Assembly (NCBI GenBank): GCA_000153745.1
Contig: DS022282.1
Location: 1,262,066-1,326,065 of the forward strand
Source of the DNA: Rhodobacterales bacterium HTCC2255
GTDB taxonomy: Bacteria; Pseudomonadota; Alphaproteobacteria; Rhodobacterales; Rhodobacteraceae
Length of the DNA: 64,000 nt
Direction of reading: 5' to 3'
Each line of letters opens with the position of its first letter. Within the stretch, counting starts at the first letter, position 1. This document shows, one piece after another, positions 4,193 through 19,119 of the stretch. Below the pieces are notes generated by a model. That model was given only the letters and a program-made list of their open reading frames with translations. It did not search any database and was not told where the DNA came from. Made by a program: the position numbers and the translations under genes.

Positions 4193-5302
4193 CTATACGT
4201 TACTTACAGAAAAAGAGTTGCATACGTCTATTACCAGATCAATATGAGCAGTCTCCATAACAGGGCTAATAGGCAGGCTCAAAATTTCCTGATGAATTTT
4301 CTCTGTAATGGGAAGACTCAGATGTCCTAATTCACGGTACGCCAACTGTCCATGCGAAGGTATAGGATAGTGAATCAATGTTTGGATGCCATGGCTGCTG
4401 AGCAGCGTTGCCAATTCCTCTCTAAACATAGTGCTAATGACAAAAAGATGGTAAACATTATTCAAACCATCTAAAGGTGCAATTCGAATATTTGGGTTAT
4501 CAATTCTTTTATAATATTCTTTTGCTATAGCCCTTCTTCTATTATTGTCACTATCTAAGGTCTTCAATTTTACAGACAGCATAGCAGCTTGAATTTCGTC
4601 TAAACGGCTATTAACACCTTTGATATTGTTAACATATTTCCGTTCGCTACCGTAATTGCCAATTGCCCTGATGGTATTTGCCAACGCTGAATCAGATGTC
4701 ACAACAGCACCCGCATCACCAAGGGCACCTAAATTCTTTCCGGGATAAAAACTAAATGCAGCGGCATCACTCCAAGATCCTACCATTTTACCATCACAAA
4801 AAACCCCGTGGGCCTGAGCTCCATCCTCTAACACCAATAAATCATACACCTTAGCAATTGCCATTATCTCACGCATTGGAGCACTTCGACCATACAAATG
4901 AACTGGCAATATGACTTTTGTCCTAGAAGTAATTGCTTTCTCGATATTTTTGACGTCGATATTGAATGTGAAAGGATCTGGTTCAACAAATATTGGAGTT
5001 AGCCTATTTTCAGTGACCGATAATATAGTGGCAATATATGTATTTGCTGGTACCAATACCTCGTCGCCATCTTTAAGTTTTCCTAACTCTTTCCAGGCAC
5101 GCATGGTTAATGTCAAAGCGTCAAGGCCGTTGGCAACCCCTATACAGTGATCAGAGTCACAGTACTCTGCAAACTCCCTCTCGAAATTGTTAAGATATTG
5201 TCCTTGAATATACCACCCAGAATCAATTACGTTAGAACACGCTTCAATCAGCTCTTGTTTATGTCGACTATTAATCGCTTTTAAATCAAGGAAAGGTATC
5301 AT
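4193..5302 (-). CDS. fdtB: dTDP-3-keto-6-deoxyhexose 3-aminotransferase (FdtB/QdtB-like)
   Basis: PLP-dependent aminotransferase of the DegT/DnrJ/EryC1 family that would convert the C3 ketone of a dTDP-6-deoxyhexulose to an amine. Lys189 in SFYPGKN is the Schiff-base lysine, and the LEDGAQAHG segment around Asp160 contacts the PLP ring nitrogen. The 369-residue length is normal. The gene is last in the run rmlB-rmlA-fdtA-fdtC-fdtB, coupled to fdtC by ATGA, which is what assigns it to 3-amino-3,6-dideoxy sugar synthesis rather than to C4 amination. Whether the sugar is galacto (Fuc3N) or gluco (Qui3N) depends on FdtA. Confidence 0.87.
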
Positions 5303-5763
5303 TTATTTAAATATCTCATTATTTTTGCTGGATTACCGACAACGACAGCGTGATTAGGGACATCTTTGACCACTACAGCGCCCGCTCCGATCATTGCATA
5401 TTCTCCAATAATTATGCCTGCCAAAATTGTCGCATTGGCCCCTATACTAGCACCTCTTCGTACTATAGTTTTGGGCACCACAGACTGATATTTTTGGGAG
5501 CGCGGAAATAGATCGTTCGTAAAGGTAACGCTAGGACCTACAAACACATCATCTTCAAGAGTAACCCCATCCCACAAAAATACACCCGACTTAATTGTAC
5601 ATCTGTCCCCAATAACAGCTCTGCCTTCGATCATGCTATGTGCACATATATTGCAATCTTTGCCAATTTGCGCCCCATCAAGAACCACAACAAACTGCCA
5701 AACTTTAGTCCCTTCCCCTATATTACATTTGGCCACATCGGCTTTTGGGTGCACGAAACTCAT
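5299..5763 (-). CDS. fdtC: Left-handed beta-helix sugar N-acyltransferase (FdtC/QdtC-like)
   Basis: Expected to transfer an acetyl group from acetyl-CoA to the 3-amino group of the dTDP-amino sugar made by the adjacent aminotransferase. The 154 residues are dominated by hexapeptide repeats ([40 protein letters not shown]), giving a trimeric left-handed beta-helix, and the chain ends with the familiar [12 protein letters not shown] loop with NDLFPRS matches sugar N-acetyltransferases of the WlbB/FdtC group. ATGA overlaps on both sides couple it to fdtA and fdtB. An acyl group other than acetyl cannot be excluded. Confidence 0.85.
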
Positions 5764-6158
5764 ATAACGGTATCCTTAAATTTAATGTAATCTCGAATAT
5801 AGTCACTTTCGTCGTAGTAATCACTTGCTAAGACCAAAAGGACGCAGTCGGCACTAAAATCGTGCATTTCATGCCACAACATAGGAGGAAGGTCGACAAC
5901 AACTTTGGAGGAATCCATAATTACGTCCTCTCTTTCTATTCCATCATCAAGTGTCATGCGGCAGCTACCAGCAACACAGACTGCAATTTGATGCAATTTT
6001 TTATGTGCATGAAGCCCTCTTGTAACACCCGGTCTAGTACCTAAAACGTAATATACTCTTTTAATGTCAAATGGAACGCCTGAAGTTTGATCCATGGCCA
6101 CTAAGCCACCTCTTTCATCACCCATTCTCGGGAAATCATATAACTTAGCAATAGTCAT
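5760..6158 (-). CDS. fdtA: dTDP-4-keto-6-deoxyglucose 3,4-ketoisomerase (FdtA/QdtA family, WxcM-like cupin)
   Basis: Small cupin (132 residues) that moves the keto group of dTDP-4-keto-6-deoxyglucose from C4 to C3. The signature [11 protein letters not shown] (His50 and His52 in the active site), the preceding IKRVYYVLG strand and the ending [17 protein letters not shown] are characteristic. From memory of the structural work, galacto-forming FdtA has an Arg and a His where gluco-forming QdtA has Tyr and Arg; this protein shows DERG (Arg16) and WHEM (His96), so it looks like FdtA. It is coupled by ATGA to both neighbours, and the absence of rmlC and rmlD fits this branch. Confidence 0.86.
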
Positions 6159-7027
6159 GAATTTTCAACTATCAAGGATAAAAGGTATTGGCCATACGCT
6201 GTTTTAGCAAGCTCAGAGCCTTTTTGCTTCAACTTATCAACATCGATCCACCCTTGATTGAACGCAATCTCTTCTAGACAAGCCACTTTAAGCCCCTGAC
6301 GATGCTCAATGGTTTGAACAAACGAACCGGCTTCCAACAAACTGTCATGAGTGCCAGTATCTAGCCACGCAAACCCGCGGCCAAGAAGTTCAACAGAGAG
6401 ATCACCTCTGTTTAGATAAACATTGTTAATAGCGGTGATTTCTATTTCTCCACGGAGTGAAGGTTTGATGTCTTTAGCTATAGCCACAACATCATTATCA
6501 TAAAAATATAATCCTGTAACAGCATAATTGGATTTTGGATTTACAGGTTTCTCCTCCAACGACACAACAGACATTTTTTTATCAAATTCAACAACCCCAA
6601 AATGGCTTGGATCATTAACCTTATATCCGAATATAGTGGCGCCACTTTTAAGTTCAACTGTGGCCTTTAACATTGGAGTAAAGCCCTGACCATAAAAGAG
6701 ATTATCTCCAAGCACCAGCGCTACTTTATCTTTTCCAATAAATGACTCCCCTATTATAAAGGCCTCTGCTAGGCCATTGGGAGCGTGTTGTATTTCATAA
6801 TAAAAGGAAACGCCAAAGTCCTCTCCGGTACCAAGCAAACGCTTGTATGCTGACAAGTCATCCGGAGTGGTTATAATCAAAATGTCGCGTATTCCGGCCA
6901 ACATAAGGACCGAAATGGGGTAGTAAACCATTGGTTTATCATAAACTGGCAGTAATTGCTTTGACACTCCCTTAGTTACGGGATGAAGTCGCGTTCCAGA
7001 ACCTCCGGCTAACACTATTCCTTTCAT
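6155..7027 (-). CDS. rmlA: Glucose-1-phosphate thymidylyltransferase
   Basis: First step of dTDP-sugar synthesis: glucose-1-phosphate plus dTTP gives dTDP-glucose and pyrophosphate. The N-terminus [18 protein letters not shown] with [15 protein letters not shown], the [11 protein letters not shown] metal site and [13 protein letters not shown] are diagnostic of RmlA. The length of 290 is exactly typical of the family. It stands 23 bases downstream of rmlB and overlaps fdtA by ATGA. No rmlC or rmlD follows, so dTDP-rhamnose is not the product of this cluster as seen here. Confidence 0.95.
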
Positions 7028-7050
7028 AAATACTTTTTACTCCTCATAGA

Positions 7051-8073
7051 TTATTTTGTGACAGCCACACACCATTCTTTATTATCAAGATACCACAAAA
7101 CGGTCTTCCTAATGCCCGACTCAAATGTTTCACTAGGTTGCCAAGACAAATCTCTTGATATTTTAGCCGCATCAATAGCATAGCGTTTGTCATGACCAGG
7201 CCGGTCTTCTACATGAGTAATCTGACTAGTATATGATCGGTCAGCTAATGGAATTAATTCATCCAATAGATTACAGATCGTCATGACGACATCAATGTTT
7301 TTCTTTTCATTATGGCCACCTATGTTATAGGTCTGTCCAAGTTTACCTTTCGTGACAACTTTATAGAGCGCCTCAGCATGATCTTCTACATATAGCCAAT
7401 CACGCACTTGGTCACCAGCCCCATATATTGGTAATTTTTTTCCTTCTATAGCGTTATTAATAATCAGGGGTATCAGTTTTTCAGGAAACTGATACGGCCC
7501 ATAATTGTTTGAACAGTTACTAATAACGACTGGGAAATCATAGGTCCTAAACCAAGCTCGAACTAAATGATCCGAAGCAGCCTTTGATGCAGAGTATGGT
7601 GAACTAGGACAGTACGGGGTCTCCTCAGTGAATAACTCACCATCCTCTAAATCACCGTAGACCTCATCAGTTGATATGTGGTGAAATATAAATCGATCTT
7701 GTTTGTTCTTGTCTAAATTGGACCAATATGCCTTTGCAACCTCAAGCATATTATAGGTTCCGACGACGTTTGTCAGGATAAAGTCACTAGGACTATTAAT
7801 TGATCTATCCACATGGCTTTCAGCCGCTAAGTGCATAACTACATCTGGACTATGCTCACTAAACACCCGCACTAGCTCTTTCTTGTTACAAATATCCACT
7901 TGTTCAAAGGTATAGGCACTATTAGATGCTGTGCCTTGCAACGATTCTAGATTTCCTGCATAAGTCAATGCATCAATATTAACAACGCAATCATCGGTAT
8001 TTTGAAGAATAAATCGGATAACCGCTGATCCAATAAAACCCGCACCACCTGTAACTAGTACTTTTTTTGCCAT
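7051..8073 (-). CDS. rmlB: dTDP-glucose 4,6-dehydratase
   Basis: Extended short-chain dehydrogenase that turns dTDP-glucose into dTDP-4-keto-6-deoxyglucose using bound NAD. It shows the Rossmann motif GGAGFIGSA, the catalytic STDEVYGDL (Asp and Glu that remove the C6 hydroxyl), SPYSASK (Tyr and Lys of the SDR triad) and [18 protein letters not shown]. The 340-residue length is normal. It is the first gene of the dTDP block and is preceded by a 175-base gap, so a promoter may lie there, although I see no convincing consensus. Confidence 0.95.
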
Positions 8074-8248: not shown

Positions 8249-9205
8249 TTACACTTTCAACCTTAAAAATTCTTTAATAGATTCCCGCAAAGAAATTGTA
8301 ATATGCAATTTTAAATCACTTTTTGCTGCGCTAATGTCGGGTATATAAACGTTTCGACCCTGAAAAGTGCTTCCCGTATTTTTAAATACCACCGGTTTAT
8401 CAGGGCTTAATATATCCCTAACAAGATATGCAAGATCAGATATCGATATAGCCTCATCAGACCCAACATTGTAAGCATGCCCGGCAACCCCTTCATCAAA
8501 AATACACAATAACCATTGAGCCAAATCAAATTGGTTCATATAGGACCTTAGAGGAGTGCCATCACCTCCTACATTTATTTCCGTGCCATAAAGCGCATCG
8601 TTGATGAAATTCCCCATAGCGTAGTGCGCGGTTAAGGGCAAATCTGGCCCTACAAAAGCAAAGCAGCGCGCTATTACGGTCTGAAGGTCATACTTATCTC
8701 TGTACAGACAGCATAAATGCTCAGCAGCGATCTTCCCTAACCCATAGGCACTCGAGGGGAATAATGGATCAGCCCGCCCTAAATAGTCTTCTGGTATTTT
8801 ATCAAGACCATCTGGCTGAGGCCCATAAACAGCCCCAGAACTCGTCAAAAGAAAGCGTCTTACATTATTTTCGACAGCGAAATTTAGTATGTTATTGGTA
8901 CCAATCGTAATGTCGTTATACGTTTTATAAGGAGTCAAAAACGCTCCATTAGTTGACTCTGTAGCAGCATGAATAATTCTGTCAATTTCAACATTTTTGG
9001 GTAGCGTCGAATACTCCAGTACGTCTCCCTCGAACAATTTCAACCAAGACAACTTGGAAAATTCAGGGTTTGAATCTAAAAAAAACTTCGGGCTACGGGT
9101 CAAAATCCCAACTTCTTCACTAAATGACCCCACCTCTTTCATTGCCATCCAATGTCGCAACAAGGCTCGACCGAAGAATCCAGTCCCTCCAGTAACAAAT
9201 ATCAT
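8249..9205 (-). CDS. NAD-dependent epimerase/dehydratase (extended SDR), last gene of the six-gene cassette
   Basis: Extended SDR of 318 residues with TGGTGFFG at 5-12, TSSGAVYG and the YGLGK triad motif, followed by a nucleotide-sugar type C-terminal domain with NVGSDEAISI. It would act on a nucleotide sugar at a keto or hydroxyl carbon. In yersiniose synthesis a reductase (YerF) follows the ThDP enzyme, so a role reducing the ketone left on a newly added branch is one option; C-epimerisation is another. It is coupled by ATGA to the upstream nucleotidyltransferase gene. The exact substrate cannot be read. Confidence 0.75.
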   Translation of the reverse strand: MIFVTGGTGFFGRALLRHWMAMKEVGSFSEEVGILTRSPKFFLDSNPEFSKLSWLKLFEGDVLEYSTLPKNVEIDRIIHAATESTNGAFLTPYKTYNDITIGTNNILNFAVENNVRRFLLTSSGAVYGPQPDGLDKIPEDYLGRADPLFPSSAYGLGKIAAEHLCCLYRDKYDLQTVIARCFAFVGPDLPLTAHYAMGNFINDALYGTEINVGGDGTPLRSYMNQFDLAQWLLCIFDEGVAGHAYNVGSDEAISISDLAYLVRDILSPDKPVVFKNTGSTFQGRNVYIPDISAAKSDLKLHITISLRESIKEFLRLKV

Positions 9206-9888
9206 ACTAAGGAGAATCTTTCTTCAATAAGATCAAAATCGCGATTACTATCTGCGTTCAACCAAAAGTCATAATATTCATGCTGTTTCAAAATATTTTT
9301 ATTAGCGCAAAAGTTTAGGAAATCAACCTCTAGTCCACCATCAATTCTTTCGGATTCAAAGTTTTTTAGAGTATCACGAAATAGTTCCCTGTCACCTTGA
9401 AATAACCCAGCAAAGATACTGTGGGCATTGGCAGGATTTCTTGAATCATATGAACTAATACCTTTCACTGCCGTCTCAAAAGGAGATGTGTAAACCCGAG
9501 GAAATCTAGTTCTTACAGGAACTGTTGTAAGGGAAATAGAGCCACAAAGTGGGGTAATCCAAAAACTTTTTTCCGTGAAGATGTCAGGATATGAAAATGA
9601 CATCAGAGGAAGCTTAAATGCATTCAAAACGGTTTTAAATTTAAATATTGTTGGCGATTTATCAGGTGTTTCGACGATATCAACCTTATGGAGACCTACT
9701 TCTTTTTCAAACAATGAAATTTCATTCCGTTCAACCAACAAATGTATTTTTTTAAAATTATTTATATTCAGAGATAAAAAATTATGAATCACTGACTTAC
9801 CGTTATTCATTAAAAAAAGCGGTTTAGACATATAAGAATTATTATATTTCCTTTTGCCACCACAAAATAAAAAAATCTCGTTATTCAT
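9202..9888 (-). CDS. Divergent nucleotidyltransferase-like protein of the six-gene cassette
   Basis: A 228-residue protein with the outline of a sugar-1-phosphate nucleotidyltransferase. The N-terminus IFLFCGGKRKYNNSYMSKPL sits where family members have L-A-G-G-x-G-T-R and P-K-P. The SYPDIF segment sits where a metal-binding Asp is expected, and NADSNRDFDLI resembles the second metal site near the C-terminus. The usual G-x-G-T-R loop is not intact, so activity is uncertain. It overlaps both neighbours (8 and 4 bases). It may activate an unusual sugar or polyol phosphate, or it may have lost catalysis. The family call is mine, by eye. Confidence 0.55.
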   Translation of the reverse strand: MNNEIFLFCGGKRKYNNSYMSKPLFLMNNGKSVIHNFLSLNINNFKKIHLLVERNEISLFEKEVGLHKVDIVETPDKSPTIFKFKTVLNAFKLPLMSFSYPDIFTEKSFWITPLCGSISLTTVPVRTRFPRVYTSPFETAVKGISSYDSRNPANAHSIFAGLFQGDRELFRDTLKNFESERIDGGLEVDFLNFCANKNILKQHEYYDFWLNADSNRDFDLIEERFSLV

Positions 9889-10678
9889 AAAATATTATCT
9901 CCATGTCTTTATCAATTTTATTTAGCTGGCCACAAGCAGAAGCTATGCGCTCATTCAATGCTAAAAAAGAATCACTGTTCCAACTTGCTATTAGAATAAA
10001 CTTATTATCGGGGAGAACTTTATAGCTTATGTGACATTTAGCTAAATAAAGAACTGGAAGAAATGCAATAACATCCCATATGCGCACGCTAAAACCGACA
10101 AAAGTCTGTAATTTACCTTTTAACAACTCTAGAAGACCGATACCTGCAGAGCCCCATCTATAGAGACCGGTTGAGTAATCGTCAATAATACATAACAAAT
10201 CATTCCTCAGTGACATATCATTTCGGCTGAGATCAGGTGGGTATGCGAAATATGTCGGCCCTGAGCTTTTTGACTTAATGTCAAAGCTGGAATGTAATTC
10301 ACCATTATCCCAAATAACTCTATCTTTTGGGATCGGGGAATAAACGCCCGCCTTCACTATCTTGTAATTTTTGATTACGCAAATAATCGTGCAATACCAG
10401 GGGTTACCGAGCTGGAAATTATGCGAACCGTCTAGCGGATCAATAACGACCGTCGTGTCTTTAAACGGTATGAGCCCATTAAAACTAACTCCTTCTTCGG
10501 AATAAATAACACAACATTCAATAGAACTTGCCGTACTTGACAAAACATCATGTAGATCAAAATCAAGTTTCGTTACGACATCTCGTTCGACGCCATTTTT
10601 TGTGTCCAAGACAGCTCTATCTACATCTGAGCACCTTTCGTAAACATCGATCGCAGCCGCGATTAGATCAACAATCAT
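9881..10678 (-). CDS. Inositol-monophosphatase-superfamily phosphatase
   Basis: Magnesium-dependent phosphatase fold, 265 residues. The metal-binding signature is clear: SEEG (Glu61/Glu62), VIDPLDGSHNF (Asp80, Asp83) and a later WDVIAF aspartate. The superfamily removes phosphate from inositol, fructose bisphosphate, PAP and various sugar phosphates. Within this cassette a sugar- or polyol-phosphate substrate is more likely than a housekeeping one, because the gene is coupled by ATGA to a mannitol-phosphate-dehydrogenase-like gene and by 8 bases to a nucleotidyltransferase-like gene. A second, ordinary family member is encoded at 38573-39346. Confidence 0.78.
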   Translation of the reverse strand: MIVDLIAAAIDVYERCSDVDRAVLDTKNGVERDVVTKLDFDLHDVLSSTASSIECCVIYSEEGVSFNGLIPFKDTTVVIDPLDGSHNFQLGNPWYCTIICVIKNYKIVKAGVYSPIPKDRVIWDNGELHSSFDIKSKSSGPTYFAYPPDLSRNDMSLRNDLLCIIDDYSTGLYRWGSAGIGLLELLKGKLQTFVGFSVRIWDVIAFLPVLYLAKCHISYKVLPDNKFILIASWNSDSFLALNERIASACGQLNKIDKDMEIIFYE

Positions 10679-11760
10679 ACGTCGTACTCTTCATAGGCTT
10701 TCTGAATAAGCATCCCTTCTGCGCTATCACTCTGAACACCTAGATGTAACGATAAGAAATCACCTAGCGAACCGTTATTAATTTTATTTATAATAGGATA
10801 ATCAGGGTCGTTTTTCTCATTATACTTTAAAGCCGCCACAATACCTTTGGTCAGGTTCACTGGAGAAATCCCCGCAGATATACACATCCTCAGTGCACCT
10901 AATAACCTCCCACCTGGCTGTAACTTTCTAATAGGCTCACGAGCAACCCGAATTACCGGATCAAATAGAAGATTATTACTAAATCTTCTAATTTCTTTTT
11001 TTGCATATGCTTCCATGAAGTTATGGTCATGATTTGTGAGGATTTTTAACATTTGCAAAATCTCATCCACAACTCCTTCCAAAATAATGCTTACCTCCTC
11101 TATCGCCAACGCTTCATGAACGTACTTGCATTCAAATAGATAGCCGTAGAATGCAGCTATGCAGTGAGGAGTATTGTGTAAGTATAATTTGGCATCCCAC
11201 TCACTTTTCATTTGGTCTAAATCAATCCAGTGGATACCTGGAGTTAGGTCTTTTAAGCAATCCGTAATATCACCATGATCTTCTAGATACAAAACTCCAT
11301 TCTCTGTATGCAATGCGTTAGGGTCTAGTTCAAGGTTTTCAGTTGATGCAGTTAGCGACGCAATAACATCTGGTACGCCAAAATATATATCGTCTTTTCC
11401 AAGATGCCCTTGTAAAATTTTGACTGTATAAGGATCGTTCTCTAGGCTGAATATCTTACAGGTTAATTTCCCTAACTCCTTAGGTAACTTTTCTACATTT
11501 CTAGGGCCGACACAAACAAAGGCGATGTCAAATACTTCCAAATCAATTTCATTTAGATCAGAGAAAGCCAAACGACTATCAACATCCATAACATCTAAAC
11601 GATCACCAAAACTCATGAATGTTTTGTACACCCCTCTCTCTCTTAAAGATGTGGCGAGCTGGTCATTGCCATCGAAAAATGTTATCTCGAAATTTTTTAG
11701 TTCCCAAGGAACATATCCTCTACCAATCGCTCCTGCACCTACTATTAAAGCTTTAACCAC
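10675..11760 (-). CDS. Mannitol-1-phosphate 5-dehydrogenase-like oxidoreductase
   Basis: Polyol-specific long-chain dehydrogenase/reductase of 361 residues. It has an N-terminal NAD(P) loop GAGAIGRG at 8-15 and the family catalytic trio in AKLYLHNTPH (Lys191, Asn196, His199). MtlD interconverts fructose-6-phosphate and mannitol-1-phosphate; here no mannitol transporter is nearby, and the gene is locked between an enolase-superfamily and a phosphatase gene, so a ketose- or aldose-phosphate reduction for glycan synthesis is more likely. The start appears to be GTG at 11760, inside the end of the upstream gene, with AAGGA about nine bases before it. The substrate is unknown. Confidence 0.72.
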   Translation of the reverse strand: MVKALIVGAGAIGRGYVPWELKNFEITFFDGNDQLATSLRERGVYKTFMSFGDRLDVMDVDSRLAFSDLNEIDLEVFDIAFVCVGPRNVEKLPKELGKLTCKIFSLENDPYTVKILQGHLGKDDIYFGVPDVIASLTASTENLELDPNALHTENGVLYLEDHGDITDCLKDLTPGIHWIDLDQMKSEWDAKLYLHNTPHCIAAFYGYLFECKYVHEALAIEEVSIILEGVVDEILQMLKILTNHDHNFMEAYAKKEIRRFSNNLLFDPVIRVAREPIRKLQPGGRLLGALRMCISAGISPVNLTKGIVAALKYNEKNDPDYPIINKINNGSLGDFLSLHLGVQSDSAEGMLIQKAYEEYDV

Positions 11761-13076
11761 GTTATACCGTCCTTAAAATTAATTAACTTACTATTTATCT
11801 CACTAGCAAACCCCACCAATAACCCGCTCATTCTCGGGGCTTCAACCCTTCCTCTCGACACTAAAGCAGGCTGGGTCATAAAATGAGAACAGAAACTTAC
11901 GTTTTCTAACAAACTGGAATCAAAATCTTTTATACCAAAATAACGTGCCTGATTATAAAAGCTTATATGTGCCGATAGTTCATCAAGACAAGAACCGCCC
12001 GCATGTGGTGTTATCGGGCAATTAAGCCGGTAAGCTATTTCACATACTAAGATGACATCAATGAACCCAAGCATCCTGCAAGGATCAGCTTGGAATCTGT
12101 CTATACCCTGCATCATTAGTGACAGCGCCACATGCGGAGATGGGCAGTTTTCGCCAGTCACAATTTCTATACTCAAGTTATGTTTTGCTTTATATTTTAT
12201 CAGCTGCTCGAACAACACTATATTATCTGGCGCAAAAGGTTCTTCAAGCCATAGGATACCACGGACCTCTAAGGCCACTATAAATTTCTTAGCTGTATCA
12301 AGAGACAGAGTTTGATTCGCATCAGCACAAAGAATGATATCTTTAGGCAATATTTCCTTTAATTTATCAATTTTGTTTAGGAAATAGTCTATGTCTGGTC
12401 CAACTTTAAGTTTAAACAGCGTTTTACCTTCATCATGAAAGACATTTAGAATTTCCTTTGAAAGGGTATCGACATCAAATCCTATCCAGGTCGTATGGTA
12501 TACAGGCAGCCCGTTTTTTTCAATAAGCGTGATATTTTCATTCAAAACCTGAGGTGTTGGTGTGAAAATTGTATTATTAACCTCAAAAATTGAAGACAAA
12601 TTGGTGTTTTCACCATAAAAACCAAGGAAATCATTATCACTGATACCTAAAAATAACTTCCAAGCCGGTAGATTATATTTTTTGCCAAAAAAGTCCACGA
12701 TTGTATTTAAAATTACTCCCGTGGCTTGGTACTGAACACCTCCATTAGGTGATAGCCATCTAATCTGGTGCGGATTAATCAAGAAAGCATAAGGCGACTC
12801 CCAGCCCTGAGATAACTCCCGCAAGGTTGACCCATCATAAAGTTGCAAGATATCCTCGACCGCACGACATATAAGGTCATTCCCCAAACCCAAAGTAAAT
12901 CCAGCGCCATACGCGTCTATACCATTTTTCCGTAAGCCTACTAGCGGGTTTGAATACTGAGTATGCAAGTTGATCGCGTCACTACCCATTCCAAATCTGG
13001 GAATATCAATTCTAACATCACTGATAGTCCATTGCTCTATATTAAATTCAAAGTCTAACAAGTCATTTAAAATCAT
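11745..13076 (-). CDS. Enolase-superfamily acid-sugar dehydratase, L-fuconate-dehydratase-like
   Basis: Predicted to abstract the alpha proton of an aldonate and eliminate water, giving a 2-keto-3-deoxy acid. With the ATG at 13076 as residue 1 (443 residues), the visible catalytic set is Lys222-x-Lys224 (FKLKVG), metal ligands Asp252 (ADAN), Glu278 (LEEP) and Glu309 (GEN), and His358 (TPHAGG). The early GSDAINLHTQYSNP segment and the spacing match the fuconate dehydratase group. GAGGA lies just upstream of 13076, and this start gives a 14-base overlap with the ThDP gene, so the ATG or TTG further upstream is unlikely. An aldonate dehydratase inside a polysaccharide cluster is unusual. Confidence 0.78.
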   Translation of the reverse strand: MILNDLLDFEFNIEQWTISDVRIDIPRFGMGSDAINLHTQYSNPLVGLRKNGIDAYGAGFTLGLGNDLICRAVEDILQLYDGSTLRELSQGWESPYAFLINPHQIRWLSPNGGVQYQATGVILNTIVDFFGKKYNLPAWKLFLGISDNDFLGFYGENTNLSSIFEVNNTIFTPTPQVLNENITLIEKNGLPVYHTTWIGFDVDTLSKEILNVFHDEGKTLFKLKVGPDIDYFLNKIDKLKEILPKDIILCADANQTLSLDTAKKFIVALEVRGILWLEEPFAPDNIVLFEQLIKYKAKHNLSIEIVTGENCPSPHVALSLMMQGIDRFQADPCRMLGFIDVILVCEIAYRLNCPITPHAGGSCLDELSAHISFYNQARYFGIKDFDSSLLENVSFCSHFMTQPALVSRGRVEAPRMSGLLVGFASEINSKLINFKDGITWLKL

Positions 13077-14886
13077 AGAATTCCTCAAACTCAACATAAG
13101 GATACATATAATCAATAGCTGTATTTTCGAATGTGCCCTCATCGTTCATTTTGCTTACGACCAAAGGCTCAATGGTCTCAAACTCACTGGTAAAGACCTC
13201 GATAACCAATTTAATAGCATCTACTTTTGTGAGGTGATCTCGAAGTATGCTCTTAAGTTCGTTTTTAGATCTTGCACCCCTATATTCAATACCAAAGCAC
13301 GAAACTAAACTCTTATAGTCAGGAATAAAAACCCCGCTAGCCTCATCAGTTCCAAGCTTTCGTCCCTCAAAGAATTTATCTTGAGTTGCTTTTATCGATC
13401 TATAACCTCCATTATTTACAATAATCAAAACAAATGATGAGTCACTGGTTTTTAATGTTGATAACTCAGAAGCACACATCATCAAAGACCCATCGCCTAC
13501 AACTCCTAAAACAGGCTTTGCATTACAACTCTGCGACGCTCCTACTATGTATGAAAGAGTCATTCCCATTGAACCGAAGGAGCCTGAAGAGATAAAGGTG
13601 TTATTTTTTGTTAACTTCATCGATTGCGGAACGATGTACCATGGCTGGCCTGCGTCAGTTACTACTGCGCCAAATTGATCCATATAATCATCCAGCTCAT
13701 CGAGAGCATCATAGAGACTAAAATCTGATGATATAGGTATGTGCTCCAAATACATAGACTTTATTCGAGCACAGTAGGCGAGCCATTCTTGAAGATCATT
13801 TTCTAAATTAATATTTAGTGTGATATATCTTAAAGACTGAACAACATCCATCGAAAAAGTATTTTCAATATTTAAATCATTCTTTCGGTGCGCAACAATC
13901 GCATCATCGATCTCAAACCAATATTTTTTTGCATTCGGATTAAATAATAACGGATCCCAGCCTACGATTTGCTGATGCATACTACATCCAACAATAATAA
14001 TCGTATCGGCTTGCTGGCTTATTATATTTGCGCTTCTATTACCCCTGATACTTAAGACGCCCAGATAATATTCATCATCATGATAACCAACAGATTTCGC
14101 GAGAGGTGTGACCATGTAAGGAATCTTGAATTCACGGGCAATCGCTCTACATGCTTCCTCTCCTTTTGCTCGCAAAACACCCGCCCCGAAGATAAAAATA
14201 GGAGCGGCTCCAACGCTTATTTTTTTTTGGTCGATATTTTCAAGATTACCAACTTTGTATTCTACAAGTAATTCCCGCTCTTTCCAATAAGCGTTAATCA
14301 CATCATGTGGTAAATTTTTCCCCTGAACGTCAAGAGGAATTTCAATATAGGCAGGGCCAGTCCGGCCTGACAACATAGCACTCAGCGCCTCTTCTACAGC
14401 ACTGATCCCCTCAATTGGATTTTGAATGATTGTCGAATATTTCGTAATCGGACGAAAACAATCAATAGCATCAAATTCAAAAGTACCATTCTGCCTTAAG
14501 CCAGACATTTTATTAATACGCGAAGAATCTGAACTCTTCACTTGACCGCCCAAGAACATTACTGGAGAGCTATCCTGCCATGCCGCGGCTACAGAGGTAA
14601 ATAAGTTTGTTACACCTGGCCCGGTTGTGCCGATAGCTACGCCAACTGTTTTACCAGCACGTGTATATGCATCCGCGGCAATACCTGCAAAAGATTCGTG
14701 TTGCACACAAACCAAATCCATATTACGTGAGCGTGCAATAGCATCAACGATATACATTATCCCACCACCAGTAAGCGAGAAAACTTTATCAACCCCAAGC
14801 ATATTAAGACGGATCAAAATATAATCTGAAAAATTAATAATATCTGTACTGTTAATCTTATCTAAAAATATTTTCTTTGCACTCAT
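13063..14886 (-). CDS. Thiamine-diphosphate-dependent carboligase, acetolactate-synthase-like (possible YerE-type enzyme)
   Basis: Three-domain ThDP enzyme of about 607 residues. The activating glutamate is Glu64 in CVQHESFAG; the ThDP-magnesium motif runs from GDG (465-467) to NN (492-493). The C-terminal tail with DYMYPYVEFEEF is long. The family decarboxylates a 2-keto acid and transfers the acyl carbanion. Because ddhABCD lies directly upstream, the closest known role is YerE of yersiniose synthesis, which adds a two-carbon unit to C4 of a CDP-4-keto-3,6-dideoxyhexose. The start is ATG 14886 with GAGG upstream; the TTG at 14901 is rejected. It heads an overlapping six-gene run. Confidence 0.8.
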   Translation of the reverse strand: MSAKKIFLDKINSTDIINFSDYILIRLNMLGVDKVFSLTGGGIMYIVDAIARSRNMDLVCVQHESFAGIAADAYTRAGKTVGVAIGTTGPGVTNLFTSVAAAWQDSSPVMFLGGQVKSSDSSRINKMSGLRQNGTFEFDAIDCFRPITKYSTIIQNPIEGISAVEEALSAMLSGRTGPAYIEIPLDVQGKNLPHDVINAYWKERELLVEYKVGNLENIDQKKISVGAAPIFIFGAGVLRAKGEEACRAIAREFKIPYMVTPLAKSVGYHDDEYYLGVLSIRGNRSANIISQQADTIIIVGCSMHQQIVGWDPLLFNPNAKKYWFEIDDAIVAHRKNDLNIENTFSMDVVQSLRYITLNINLENDLQEWLAYCARIKSMYLEHIPISSDFSLYDALDELDDYMDQFGAVVTDAGQPWYIVPQSMKLTKNNTFISSGSFGSMGMTLSYIVGASQSCNAKPVLGVVGDGSLMMCASELSTLKTSDSSFVLIIVNNGGYRSIKATQDKFFEGRKLGTDEASGVFIPDYKSLVSCFGIEYRGARSKNELKSILRDHLTKVDAIKLVIEVFTSEFETIEPLVVSKMNDEGTFENTAIDYMYPYVEFEEFYDFK

Positions 14887-14979
14887 GTTACCTGACCTCA
14901 AAATACTGGTCTATAAACCAGATATAATTAAATTTATTCTTAAATATGACTGGAAATCTGTAATTTTAAGCAGTTGTAC

Positions 14980-16299
14980 TTAAAAATCTGAAACACCAAA
15001 AAATTCTTCCAATTTCTGGACTGCATAATCTAAGTGGTCATTTTTCAAGCCGGGATATAATCCAATCCAGAGAGTTTGATTCATTGTAATGTCAGTATTA
15101 GTCAAGCTCCCCACAACTCTATACTCTAATCCCTCGAAATATGGCTGTTTTGTTAAATTTCCAGCAAAGAGCAATCGAGAACCAATTTTATTTTGATCCA
15201 AATATTTTGTTAAATCTGTTCGATCAACCCCACAGTCTTCTTTTAAGGTTATTGGAAACCCGAACCAAGACGGCTCTGAATTCTCGGTTGGTACCGTCAG
15301 TTCTATGTAATCAGACAGCGACGATAACTTTTCGCTCAAATAAGCGAAATTATCATTTCTAGCCTTTATAAACTCTGGGAGTCGCTTTAACTGAGCTAAC
15401 CCGCACGCCGCCTGCATATCTGTTATTTTTAAATTGTAACCAAGGTGAGAATAAGTGTACTTATGGTCATAACCTTGCGGTAAAGACCCTAATTTTTGCC
15501 CAAAACGCTTACCACAAGTATCATCGCACCCTGGCTTGCAGTAGCAATCACGCCCCCAATCTCGGTAAGATTCAGCAATACTCATAAGCTCTGAGTTATT
15601 ACTGAAAACTGCACCGCCTTCGCCCATTGTCATGTGGTGCGCAGGGTAAAAACTTAAGGTCGCTATATCCCCCCATGTACCAATCATCTTTCCATCATAC
15701 TTCGCCCCCAATGCGTCACAGCTATCTTCAACAAGCCATAGTCCATGCCGATCACATATGTCCTTAACTTTCCTGACGTTAAAAGGGTTACCTAGAGTAT
15801 GCGCAAGCATAATTGCTTTCGTTTTTGGCGTAATCGCAGCTTCAATAAGGTTGGCATCGATATTGTGAGTGCTAAGGTCTACATCAACGAAAACAGGGAC
15901 TGCGCCAAATTGGACAATTGGATTAACGGTCGTAGGAAAACCAGCAGCAACACCAATTACCTCATCGCCCTTCTTGATCGCCCTATCCCCAAGCTTATGA
16001 GACGTTAACGTACTAAAAGCTACTAAGTTAGCGGACGAACCAGAATTAACCGTAATTAAGTGCTTTATACCAATAAATGCCGCCAGTTCTTTTTCAAATT
16101 TATCATTAAATCGGCCTGTGGTTAACCAACCGTCTAACGATGCCTCAACCATATACTGAAGCTCTGTTTCGCCAATTACTTTCCCCGACACAGGGACGGG
16201 GGTTTCGCCCGAAACAAATATCTTTTCCGCGTACTGTAATTTTGCATATTTACTGACCAATTCAGCAATCTCGTCTCTCAGATTTTCAGTTGTTTGCAT
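14980..16299 (-). CDS. ddhC: CDP-4-keto-6-deoxyglucose-3-dehydratase (E1, PMP/[2Fe-2S] enzyme)
   Basis: Removes the C3 hydroxyl of CDP-4-keto-6-deoxyglucose with PMP and an iron-sulphur cluster, partnered by the DdhD reductase. It belongs to the DegT fold, but the Schiff-base lysine is replaced by histidine (His221 in FYPAHHMTMGEGGA), the hallmark of E1. Cysteines fit C-x57-C-x1-C-x7-C exactly: Cys194, Cys252, Cys254 and Cys262, with an extra Cys258. The length of 439 is standard. The ATG overlaps the end of ddhB by 14 bases and has AAGGA upstream. Synonym rfbH. Confidence 0.95.
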   Translation of the reverse strand: MQTTENLRDEIAELVSKYAKLQYAEKIFVSGETPVPVSGKVIGETELQYMVEASLDGWLTTGRFNDKFEKELAAFIGIKHLITVNSGSSANLVAFSTLTSHKLGDRAIKKGDEVIGVAAGFPTTVNPIVQFGAVPVFVDVDLSTHNIDANLIEAAITPKTKAIMLAHTLGNPFNVRKVKDICDRHGLWLVEDSCDALGAKYDGKMIGTWGDIATLSFYPAHHMTMGEGGAVFSNNSELMSIAESYRDWGRDCYCKPGCDDTCGKRFGQKLGSLPQGYDHKYTYSHLGYNLKITDMQAACGLAQLKRLPEFIKARNDNFAYLSEKLSSLSDYIELTVPTENSEPSWFGFPITLKEDCGVDRTDLTKYLDQNKIGSRLLFAGNLTKQPYFEGLEYRVVGSLTNTDITMNQTLWIGLYPGLKNDHLDYAVQKLEEFFGVSDF

Positions 16300-17380
16300 G
16301 TCTCATATCCTTAGTAAATTCATTGATCTCATTAATACACTCTACTCTCATGTCAGCCCCTTCAATCCAGTATTTGTGCCATCCTGTAATTTTCTCTAAC
16401 GTAGTATCAAGGCTCCATGTGGGTGCCCAACCCAAAATAGCTGATGCCTTCGATATGTCTAATTTAAGCAGCATCGCTTCATGAGGATTATCATCCCGAT
16501 CTAGTCTCCAAGATGCACCGGGCCATAGGCTAATCATTTGATCTAAAATCCAATCTACCGGCCGAACATCACGGTCATGTGGGCCAAAATTCCAACCTTC
16601 CGAAAACTTGCCAGGGTTTTTGAATAATTGCTCTGCAAGAATTAAGTAACCAGAAAGAGGTTCAAGAACATGCTGCCATGGCCTTGTGGCATCCGGATTA
16701 CGAATAACAACAGATTTAGACGCCTCAAAAGCCCTAAGAATATCTGGTATTAAGCGATCTTCCGCCCAATCCCCTCCACCAATAACATTGCCAGCCCGCG
16801 CGGTAGCAAGACCAATATTAGCACCCCTCAAGAACGAATCCCTATAAGAACTTGTGACTAATTCAGAACAGCCCTTACTGCTACTATAAGGATCTCTGCC
16901 GCCCATTGGATCTGTTTCTTTATAACCCCAGACCCATTCATTATTTTCATAACATTTATCGGTGGTTATGTTTACCACAGCTTTCACTGATGAACATAGC
17001 CTGACAGCTTCTAGTAAATTCGCTGTTCCCATAACATTGGTTTCGTATGTTTCTAGCGGCTTTTCATAAGAGGCACGAACAAGGGGTTGGGCCGCCATGT
17101 GAAACACTATATCAGGAGAAAACTTCAAAATACTGGCACTAAGTGCCGCATAATCTCGTATGTCATTAATATCAGACTCTACTAAACCCTCAATACCAGC
17201 TATCGCAAATAAGTTTGGATTAGTTAATGGCTCCAAGGCATAACCTTTCACGACTGCACCCATCGAGTTAAGCCATATAGACAACCAGCTCCCTTTGAAA
17301 CCGGTATGCCCGGTCAAGAAAACCTTTTTCCCTTTCCAAAATTCTGAATTAATCATGTCGTCTGCTACCATATTTTCCAA
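16286..17380 (-). CDS. ddhB: CDP-glucose 4,6-dehydratase
   Basis: Extended SDR that converts CDP-glucose to CDP-4-keto-6-deoxyglucose. It carries [13 protein letters not shown] (cofactor loop), TTDKCYEN (catalytic Asp-Lys segment peculiar to RfbG), [11 protein letters not shown] (Tyr and Lys) and [16 protein letters not shown], all diagnostic. The start is uncertain: TTG 17380 (MENMV) is the position used by relatives that overlap the end of the cytidylyltransferase gene, while ATG 17371 and ATG 17356 are alternatives; none has a strong ribosome site. It lies between ddhA and ddhC, overlapping both. Synonym rfbG. Confidence 0.94.
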
Positions 17381-18135
17381 GGTGCTTTATGTTTAGCCCA
17401 CAATTCCTCAAGTAGAATTTTGTCTCGCAGGGTATCCATTGGCTGCCAAAATCCCTGATGTTCAAATGCCATTAACTCACCGTCATGAGACAAAGATTTA
17501 AGCGGCGTCTGCTCCCAAACACTATCAAAGTTCTCAATTTTGTTTAGCACCATAGGCGACAACACAAAAAACCCACCATTTATCATCCCACCGTCGCCTT
17601 TTGGTTTCTCCATAAAACTCTTAACGGATAAGCCCTCTGTCTCTAAAGCACCAAATCTACCAGGAGGAAAAACTGACGTTACAGTAGCAAGCTTGCCATG
17701 CGACTTATGAAATTCAATACATGCAGAAATATCAACATCACTAACACCGTCCCCATATGTCAAACAAAAAGCTTCGTCATTTTGAATATATTGAGATACA
17801 GCCAATAGCCGACCTCCTGTTTGAGCATGCTCGCCGGTATCAACCAAAGTAACTTTCCAGGGCTCAGCTCGACCATCATGAACCTCCATACGGTTCTCGG
17901 TCATATGAAACGTCACGTCGGATTGATGAAGAAAGTAGTTAGCAAAATATTCCTTGATTACATACCCTTTGTACCCGCAACAGATAATAAACTCATTCAC
18001 ACCATGTTTTGAGTACATTTTCATGATATGCCAAAGAATGGGCTTACCCCCAATTTCGATCATCGGCTTTGGCTTTAAGTCAGTTTCCTCACTTATACGC
18101 GTTCCGAAGCCACCGGCCAAAATTACTGCTTTCAT
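17365..18135 (-). CDS. ddhA: Glucose-1-phosphate cytidylyltransferase
   Basis: Makes CDP-glucose from CTP and glucose-1-phosphate, the entry to CDP-3,6-dideoxyhexoses. The N-terminus [25 protein letters not shown], the [12 protein letters not shown] segment, [10 protein letters not shown] (metal site) and the ending APWKIW are typical, and the length of 256 matches the family. AAGGA lies seven bases before the ATG. It starts nine bases after ddhD ends and overlaps the start of ddhB. Synonym rfbF. Confidence 0.96.
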
Positions 18136-18144
18136 ATTAGTTCC

Positions 18145-19119
18145 TTAATTTGAGCTTACAAACGCATCTGAATAAAATCTGGTCCGCCTGAGACCATTCT
18201 GCACCAATACATCACATGCATCCTTGATCATAACTTCTGACCCACATGCATATACCGTAGTTTCTTTGAGGTTTAGCCCAAGGTCTAAGACAGCATCTTG
18301 AACATAACCAAAATAAGAACCTTCTATTTTTTCTCTAGATAAGACTGGGACAAATGTATACTTAAAGTTGGCGGCCCCAAGGTCCATATACAAGTCCTCC
18401 AAAACCCTACCACCCCAGACAATGTAAATTATTTTTTCGTCCAGGCTTCCTCCTAAGCTCTCGATGATAGCTTTTATCGGTGCAATACCTGTACCCGTGG
18501 CCATTAAAACAACATTCTTAGAGTCATCCACCCTATATGAAAATGTACCTAGAGGGCCCTCAATTCGCAGAAGATCATTTTGCCTTGCCTTTGTAAACAA
18601 ATATTCACTCATCAAGCCCTCGGAAACTCTTTTTACCTGAATCTCGAGATTTCCATCTAATCTCTCAGCATTTGCCAATGAATAACTTCGGCGAATACCC
18701 TTTTCAATTAAATTAATGTACTGACCTGCAACAAATTTAAAATTTGAGTAAGGTGGCACCCTCAGAATCACTTGAAGCACATCGTTGTTGAGTAGTTTTA
18801 AACTACTAATACGGCACGGCAAAATGCGTACTGGGATATTACCAATTTCACCAAGATCTTCAACATCTAAAGACACATCGGTAACTGGCACTCTACAACA
18901 CGTAAGAATGTTACCTATTTCCTGTCCTTCGAGTGTCAACGACGCTTCGGGCTTAATCGCGAATGTTTTCCCACTTAATACAGGCGCAACACATACACCG
19001 CACCTACCACTGGTGCAACTATGCTCTATCGCAATATTATGTTTTCGTGCAGCATCCAAAATTGTTTCACCTAACCCGCACTCAAAAGCAACACCGTTGG
19101 ATAACGAAATAGTTGGCAA
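18145..19119 (-). CDS. ddhD: CDP-6-deoxy-delta-3,4-glucoseen reductase (E3)
   Basis: Electron donor to DdhC: passes electrons from NAD(P)H through FAD and a plant-type [2Fe-2S] cluster. Residues 1-90 form the ferredoxin domain with CTSGRCGVC and a downstream Cys (ILTCC); the remainder is a ferredoxin-reductase module with RRSYSLAN (FAD) and ATGTGIAPIKA (NAD). The 324-residue length is normal. The start is a TTG at 19119 with AGGGG six bases upstream; there is no nearby in-frame ATG. It precedes ddhA by nine bases. Synonyms ascD and rfbI. Confidence 0.92.
   Translation of the reverse strand: MPTISLSNGVAFECGLGETILDAARKHNIAIEHSCTSGRCGVCVAPVLSGKTFAIKPEASLTLEGQEIGNILTCCRVPVTDVSLDVEDLGEIGNIPVRILPCRISSLKLLNNDVLQVILRVPPYSNFKFVAGQYINLIEKGIRRSYSLANAERLDGNLEIQVKRVSEGLMSEYLFTKARQNDLLRIEGPLGTFSYRVDDSKNVVLMATGTGIAPIKAIIESLGGSLDEKIIYIVWGGRVLEDLYMDLGAANFKYTFVPVLSREKIEGSYFGYVQDAVLDLGLNLKETTVYACGSEVMIKDACDVLVQNGLRRTRFYSDAFVSSN

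Follow-up and report, generated by a model that had tools for sequence, protein, structure and literature searches.

What does a bacterium make from an unbroken run of genes that joins the synthesis of a cytidine diphosphate (CDP)-linked 3,6-dideoxyhexose precursor to a thiamine diphosphate (ThDP) enzyme and a fuconate-dehydratase-like enzyme? This question is raised by a locus of Rhodobacterales bacterium HTCC2255, which we analyzed in a 64,000-nt stretch of contig DS022282.1 (positions 1,262,066 to 1,326,065; hereafter the window, numbered from its first letter). Ten co-directional genes, all on the minus strand, form a single run at 8249-19119, in which each junction overlaps or leaves a gap of no more than 93 bases. 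We think it somewhat likely that the product of this operon is a CDP-activated 3,6-dideoxyhexose with a 4-C branch, destined for a surface polysaccharide, and that the dehydratase makes the donor of the branch.

Six overlapping genes follow ddhDABC

An earlier note on this DNA had described six genes at 8249-14886 with junctions overlapping by 14, 16, 4, 8 and 4 bases. All six open reading frames (ORFs) were found on the minus strand at these positions, and every overlap is exact. They encode a putative YerE-like ThDP carboligase of 607 amino acids (13063-14886), a fuconate-dehydratase-like enzyme of the enolase superfamily with 443 amino acids (11745-13076), which is the proposed donor maker, an MtlD-like polyol/ketose dehydrogenase (10675-11760), an inositol monophosphatase (IMPase)-like sugar phosphatase (9881-10678), an orphan ORF of 228 amino acids (9202-9888) and a short-chain dehydrogenase/reductase (SDR; 8249-9205). 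Five of the six family labels agree with Pfam matches (PF02776/PF00205/PF02775 for the ThDP protein, PF13378 for the dehydratase, then PF08125, PF00459 and, for the SDR, PF01370), whereas the label of nucleotidyltransferase for the orphan ORF was not confirmed.

The likely ThDP start at 14886 is an ATG internal to the longest ORF (13063-14901), and the dehydratase ORF, with its likely start at 13076, is nested in a longer one (11745-13142). Where these two genes meet, the stop codon TGA of the ThDP gene (13065-13063) overlaps the dehydratase ATG at 13076 by 14 bases, and GAGGA stands immediately upstream of this ATG. Promoter-like sequences (30 found, 39.2 expected) and terminator-like sequences (11 found, 9.3 expected) occurred at chance levels.

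The linkage of the six genes to ddhABCD, a point raised with them, is direct: ddhDABC lie immediately upstream on the same strand and are contiguous with the cassette. They comprise a ddhD-like reductase (18145-19119) with 2Fe-2S, FAD and NAD domains (PF00111, PF00970 and PF00175), ddhA for glucose-1-phosphate cytidylyltransferase (17365-18135; TIGR02623, 461 bits, cut-off 300), ddhB for CDP-glucose 4,6-dehydratase (16286-17380; TIGR02622, 505 bits, cut-off 278) and ddhC/rfbH for the 3-dehydratase of the 3,6-dideoxyhexose pathway (14980-16299; NF011936, 743 bits, cut-off 423). As DdhA, DdhB and DdhC each exceed the NCBIfam equivalog cut-offs, they belong to the CDP-3,6-dideoxyhexose pathway. 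The ddhD-like protein is 39-44% identical to the products of same-position genes in three loci related to this one (L049, L079 and L101). By family membership, the DdhABCD proteins would form CDP-4-keto-3,6-dideoxyglucose, the predicted acceptor.

The ThDP enzyme resembles YerE-like carboligases

The ThDP protein contains three TPP (thiamine pyrophosphate) domains and thus has the architecture of the ThDP decarboxylase superfamily. E69, which we take to be the catalytic Glu, and G469-D470-G471 are invariant across three aligned sequences. The two structures that it matches best in the PDB are 5ahk, an entry with the name acetolactate synthase II, and 8rph, which is the YerE-like enzyme JanthE according to the available part of the source (PMC12188165).

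Relatives were searched in 398 genomes of the phylum and 345 of the same family, with up to three candidates scored per genome. The best foreign match in the phylum (G222, 35% identity) is flanked by ddhDABC, an HpcH/HpaI aldolase and a DmpF/DmpG pair of acetaldehyde dehydrogenase and DmpG-type aldolase. One other match in the same-family genomes reached E 1e-50 (G664), and no clear ddh or other cassette gene was seen at its locus. The matches listed from plasmids reach at most 29% identity and are annotated as acetolactate synthase where annotated. A collection of named genomes yielded at least 535 confirmed ThDP relatives, of which the loci of the best 80 were compared, with flanks of up to 10 kb (some contigs were shorter). 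In 50 of these 80, a ddhA, ddhB or ddhC homologue is found no more than 6 kb from the ThDP gene (in 45 when measured centre to centre), and the four top blast scores to the window enzyme among the 80 came from loci that all carry both DmpG and HpaI. Neither ddh nor donor genes were found at six acetolactate-synthase-like control loci (0/6).

Three trees were built: one of 37 rows, from which duplicates and proteins of 400 amino acids or fewer had been dropped; a quick tree of 108 rows, leaving out L089 (on the same contig as L050) and the partial L152; and one of 42 rows hand-picked from the 108. No YerE, ErwE or JanthE sequence was among the rows. The window enzyme clusters with L049 and L050 in the 37-row tree (support 100/95 and 100/99) and with seven rows in the 42-row tree (99/96), five of which are DmpG/HpaI loci. 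The PDB matches, the neighbours in G222 and these two trees support the view that the enzyme resembles YerE-like rather than housekeeping enzymes. Its identity as an ordinary acetolactate synthase was rejected on the low score, the gene neighbours and the two trees.

It is also very improbable that the ThDP enzyme and the dehydratase stand here by chance, as parts of ordinary catabolism or of branched-chain amino-acid synthesis. This ThDP fold is common, and the best NCBIfam matches are indeed acetolactate synthases, far under the cut-off (258 of 738 bits); yet the genome holds at least four further, more distant ThDP-type matches outside the operon, the neighbours are sugar-nucleotide genes, and relatives of the ThDP gene adjoin ddh genes.

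The dehydratase retains a FucD-type active site

The dehydratase matches the ENOSF1 and FucD structures in the PDB (E 1e-40 to 1e-34). In an alignment with nine homologues from the 398 genomes, K222, K224, D252, E278, E309, D331 and H358 are kept; we take these to be the catalytic Lys and His residues and metal ligands of the enolase superfamily. The FucD-type active site is intact in this alignment, in agreement with the family assignment given before. Matches at E 1e-25 or better occur in 28 other genomes of the 398, and the window enzyme is only 26-30% identical to its matches there and keeps just 74 of the 168 columns that are invariant in the nine homologues. Since the catalytic residues are kept while identity and invariant positions are low, the chemistry is probably retained and the substrate altered. 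With the L-fuconate dehydratase/ENOSF1 family the enzyme shares the fold family, the KxK motif, the acidic metal ligands and the His, but it differs in sequence, with 94 of the 168 invariant positions changed, and in its surface-sugar context. Filing it as L-fuconate dehydratase was rejected on the identity and the invariant positions.

A second match in the same genome is only partial and weak. The matches listed from plasmids do not exceed 29% identity and are annotated as L-fuconate dehydratase where annotated, and no relative was found in viral contigs.

Likely 2-keto-acid-forming genes often adjoin relatives of the ThDP gene

In 34 of the 80 named loci, a gene that is likely to form a 2-keto acid is no more than 150 bp away from the ThDP gene. 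These genes encode HpaI-type aldolases (8 + 8), class I aminotransferases (11), NeuB-like synthases (6), DmpG (1; L080, where HpaI is present too) and an enolase-superfamily enzyme (1; L150), and 22 of the 34 were recognised via reference genes that were not drawn from the 80 loci. The density of donor-type genes, AroB-like ones included, is 29 per 100 kb at distances of up to 1 kb from the ThDP gene and drops to 0.4 per 100 kb at 5-10.5 kb. In the window, the same slot is occupied by the fuconate-dehydratase-like enzyme, so the proposed donor maker sits where 2-keto-acid-forming genes often adjoin ThDP relatives.

The 2-keto acids produced by DmpG, HpaI, NeuB and sugar-acid dehydratases all carry a CH2 group at C3 and a hydroxyl group at C4. 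The available text of a study of YerE-like enzymes names this type, 4-hydroxy-2-oxo acids, as the preferred donor of ErwE, which does not use pyruvate (PMC12247030). By analogy, a 2-keto-3-deoxy acid made by the dehydratase is a plausible donor for the window enzyme.

A second case of a sugar-acid-dehydratase-like gene beside a ThDP relative was found at L150 (9038-12995), where a dehydratase-like enolase-superfamily gene starts 16 bases after that of a 940-amino-acid YerE-like ThDP protein. The highest scores of its product are those with galactonate and gluconate dehydratases, and they stay below cut-off; no ddh gene was recognised near this ThDP gene.

The slot is filled by a class I aminotransferase gene at L083, L084, L088, L091, L093, L094, L099, L103, L106, L124 and L155, where a 2-keto-acid donor may come from an amino acid. 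AroB-like genes, of the sugar-phosphate cyclising type, lie near YerE-like ThDP genes at L062, L069, L112, L145, L151 and L152. An HpaI-like aldolase accompanies them in five of these six loci. At L152, the AroB-like gene is the only one of all these types to adjoin the ThDP gene at 150 bp or less. For the L069 copy, TIGR04425 was the top-scoring family, short of its cut-off. Carbocyclic branched sugars are possible products of these loci.

A proposed pathway with a dehydratase-made donor

In the proposed pathway, the dehydratase would convert an aldonate to a 2-keto-3-deoxy acid, as its intact active site suggests. By analogy with ErwE, the ThDP enzyme would decarboxylate this acid and attach the polyhydroxy-acyl unit that remains to the CDP-keto sugar at C4, and the SDR would probably reduce the new branch ketone. 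The MtlD-like and IMPase-like enzymes might prepare the aldonate, for example by reduction of a keto sugar or ulosonate (or its phosphate) and removal of the phosphate, which is a guess. More generally, we tentatively suggest, at a little short of an even chance, that a private 2-keto-acid supply is common for YerE-like carboligases and has been recruited repeatedly, through DmpG, HpaI, NeuB, class I aminotransferases and, in phage-like contigs, PanB. The window would then represent an aldonate-dehydratase route, and its product would be an undescribed 3,6-dideoxyhexose with a polyhydroxylated 2'-deoxy branch of at least four carbons at C4.

Co-occurrence of all six families had been named beforehand as a test of this pathway, and it fails. 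Among 160 related loci, namely the 80 named ones and 80 from viral contigs (80 of 113, with flanks of up to 8 kb, some contigs being shorter), no clear relative of the FucD-like, MtlD-like, IMPase-like or small-ORF protein was found; the sole trace is the L150 dehydratase, a marginal match to the FucD-like protein (E 4e-4). With four of its six genes unmatched, comparison with other loci lends no support to the exact module. This absence would also fit two independent, interleaved pathways, in which ddhDABC, the ThDP enzyme and the SDR use pyruvate to make a yersiniose-like sugar, and a second, unrelated sugar is made or modified by the products of the four middle genes. Such an arrangement has counterparts in L086, L092, L127 and L128, among others, where ddhABC, a ThDP gene and an SDR gene occur with no donor-type gene within 6 kb. 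Against it, the four genes stand between the ThDP and SDR genes with all junctions overlapping, and the ThDP enzyme clusters with enzymes of aldolase-bearing loci in two of the three trees; we regard it as rather unlikely.

Further points weigh against a dehydratase-made donor, besides the missing module and the divergence of the dehydratase. In 46 of the 80 named loci, no donor gene was recognised at 150 bp or less from the ThDP gene, nor, for some ThDP genes linked to ddh, even within 6 kb. The reference genes for the aminotransferases and for L150 were picked from inside the 80 loci after inspection, and for this reason their counts cannot be taken as independent. In two of the four best-scoring ThDP loci (L079 and L081), the counterparts of the SDR share just 28-30% identity with it, and in the other two (L080 and L082) none was detected. 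As for the trees, L050, which joins the window enzyme among the 37 rows, falls elsewhere among the 42; two of the seven clade-mates in the latter (L086 and L095) have no donor-type gene; and the 108-row tree leaves the enzyme unplaced. Its branch is very long (2.9 to 4.7), which makes its placement unsure. Because the module is unmatched in the 160 loci and the tree position is unsteady, the pathway of the earlier note stands as one probable reading only.

The remaining genes of the operon

The best PDB match of the MtlD-like protein is a mannitol-1-phosphate 5-dehydrogenase (3h2z, E 1e-20), with which a K-N-H motif aligns. Assignment to the corresponding NCBIfam equivalog was rejected, as the protein scores 117 bits where 404 are required. 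Relatives were matched in 23 other genomes of the 398 (27-36% identity) and in 25 plasmid and 10 phage records (23-28% for those listed), and none was found in the named-genome collection by peptide patterns. The IMPase-like protein exceeds the PF00459 gathering score (64 bits, cut-off 27) and carries a DPLDG motif that aligns with 1xi6, which places it in the inositol monophosphatase superfamily.

The small ORF at 9202-9888 had been called a divergent nucleotidyltransferase. It has no match in Pfam, NCBIfam or the PDB, and two irrelevant Pfam rows alone appeared at E up to 10; one weak hhalign alignment with a sugar nucleotidyltransferase profile (probability 14%, E 0.0019) does not bear out the label, and we list it as a possible degenerate sugar nucleotidyltransferase. 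Six foreign matches at E 0.004-0.01 were obtained in 289 genomes of the class, and no relative in plasmids or viral contigs. An AlphaFold model from the single sequence was unusable, with a predicted local distance difference test (pLDDT) score of 40.6. Any role given here to the MtlD-like protein, the IMPase-like protein or the small-ORF product is a guess.

These three proteins could instead make an activated polyol, for which CDP-mannitol routes are a precedent, with the dehydratase as a bystander. The structural match of the MtlD-like protein and the weak alignment of the small ORF fit such a product, but the phosphatase would be expected to destroy the polyol phosphate required for activation, the nucleotidyltransferase identity is unproven, and the dehydratase retains its catalytic residues. 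We consider this alternative improbable.

The SDR is 41-43% identical to an SDR in six of the 80 named ThDP loci, and its relatives in the same genome reach at most 27%, save for one stretch of 85 residues at 37%. An SDR, YerF, takes part in the yersiniose route as well. With moderate support from these comparisons, the window SDR is probably part of the branched-sugar route, where it may reduce the new ketone of the branch or serve another late step.

Relation to known branched-sugar systems

The available text of PMC12247030 describes ErwE as a YerE-like enzyme that couples a long hydroxylated 2-keto acid with CDP-4-keto-3,6-dideoxyglucose, and YerE as an enzyme that acts on a CDP-3,6-dideoxy-4-keto sugar and prefers pyruvate. 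The window enzyme would be alike in type to ErwE of the erwiniose system (Pectobacterium atrosepticum), as it looks YerE-like and has a proposed long donor. Whereas its relatives L049, L079 and L081 have DmpF/DmpG and HpaI as putative donor genes, the window has a dehydratase; erwiniose loci may likewise use DmpFG. Like YerE of the yersiniose A system (Yersinia pseudotuberculosis), the window enzyme would be a ThDP carboligase acting on a CDP-keto sugar, and the window has further genes including the dehydratase. MMAR_2332 of the caryophyllose system (Mycobacterium marinum) is a YerE-like enzyme that, like ErwE, prefers long hydroxylated donors, as far as the same source text goes (PMC12247030); no source of its donor was found in the text consulted. 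At the locus of a mycobacterial relative, L121 (Mycolicibacterium rhodesiae), a NeuB-like synthase gene adjoins the ThDP gene.

The suggestion of a branch longer than that of yersiniose is not new in itself, since YerE-like branching and the use of long hydroxylated donors by ErwE and MMAR_2332 are already published (PMC12247030, available text). In the open-access literature searched, no paper turned up that describes a YerE-like enzyme supplied with its donor by an aldonate dehydratase, and this way of making the donor seems new. If true, the locus would offer a natural pair of dehydratase and carboligase for the making of chiral tertiary alcohols from sugar acids.

Neighbouring genes and viral relatives

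Downstream of the SDR gene, at 4193-8073 of the window, the genes look like RmlB, RmlA, FdtA, FdtC and FdtB, names that we take to denote the dTDP-Fuc3NAc pathway. In another genome of the same family, a ThDP relative with 29% identity (L167, 1-4530) has at a distance of some 2 kb a gene that looks flagellin-like by eye, which suggests a role in a flagellar sugar.

YerE-like ThDP genes are also carried by IMG/VR contigs L178-L257, for example at 7983-10722 of L183 and 7983-10705 of L257. The L183 copy matches phrog_11199, whose function is unannotated there, and five of ten viral-contig proteins had no match in PHROGs. Among the 20 matches listed from named phages, identities were 27-32% only. 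L257 bears PhoH-like and exonuclease genes, and L246 a primase/helicase gene. With copies not removed, a ddh-like gene lies within 6 kb of the ThDP gene in 72 of the 80 viral loci, and a homologue of PanB (ketopantoate hydroxymethyltransferase) within 150 bp in 48; because near-identical copies are included (e.g. L179, L181 and L255), the latter are not 48 independent cases. PF02548 was confirmed in three of the PanB homologues. These contigs possibly represent phage-encoded branched-sugar pathways with a PanB-made donor.

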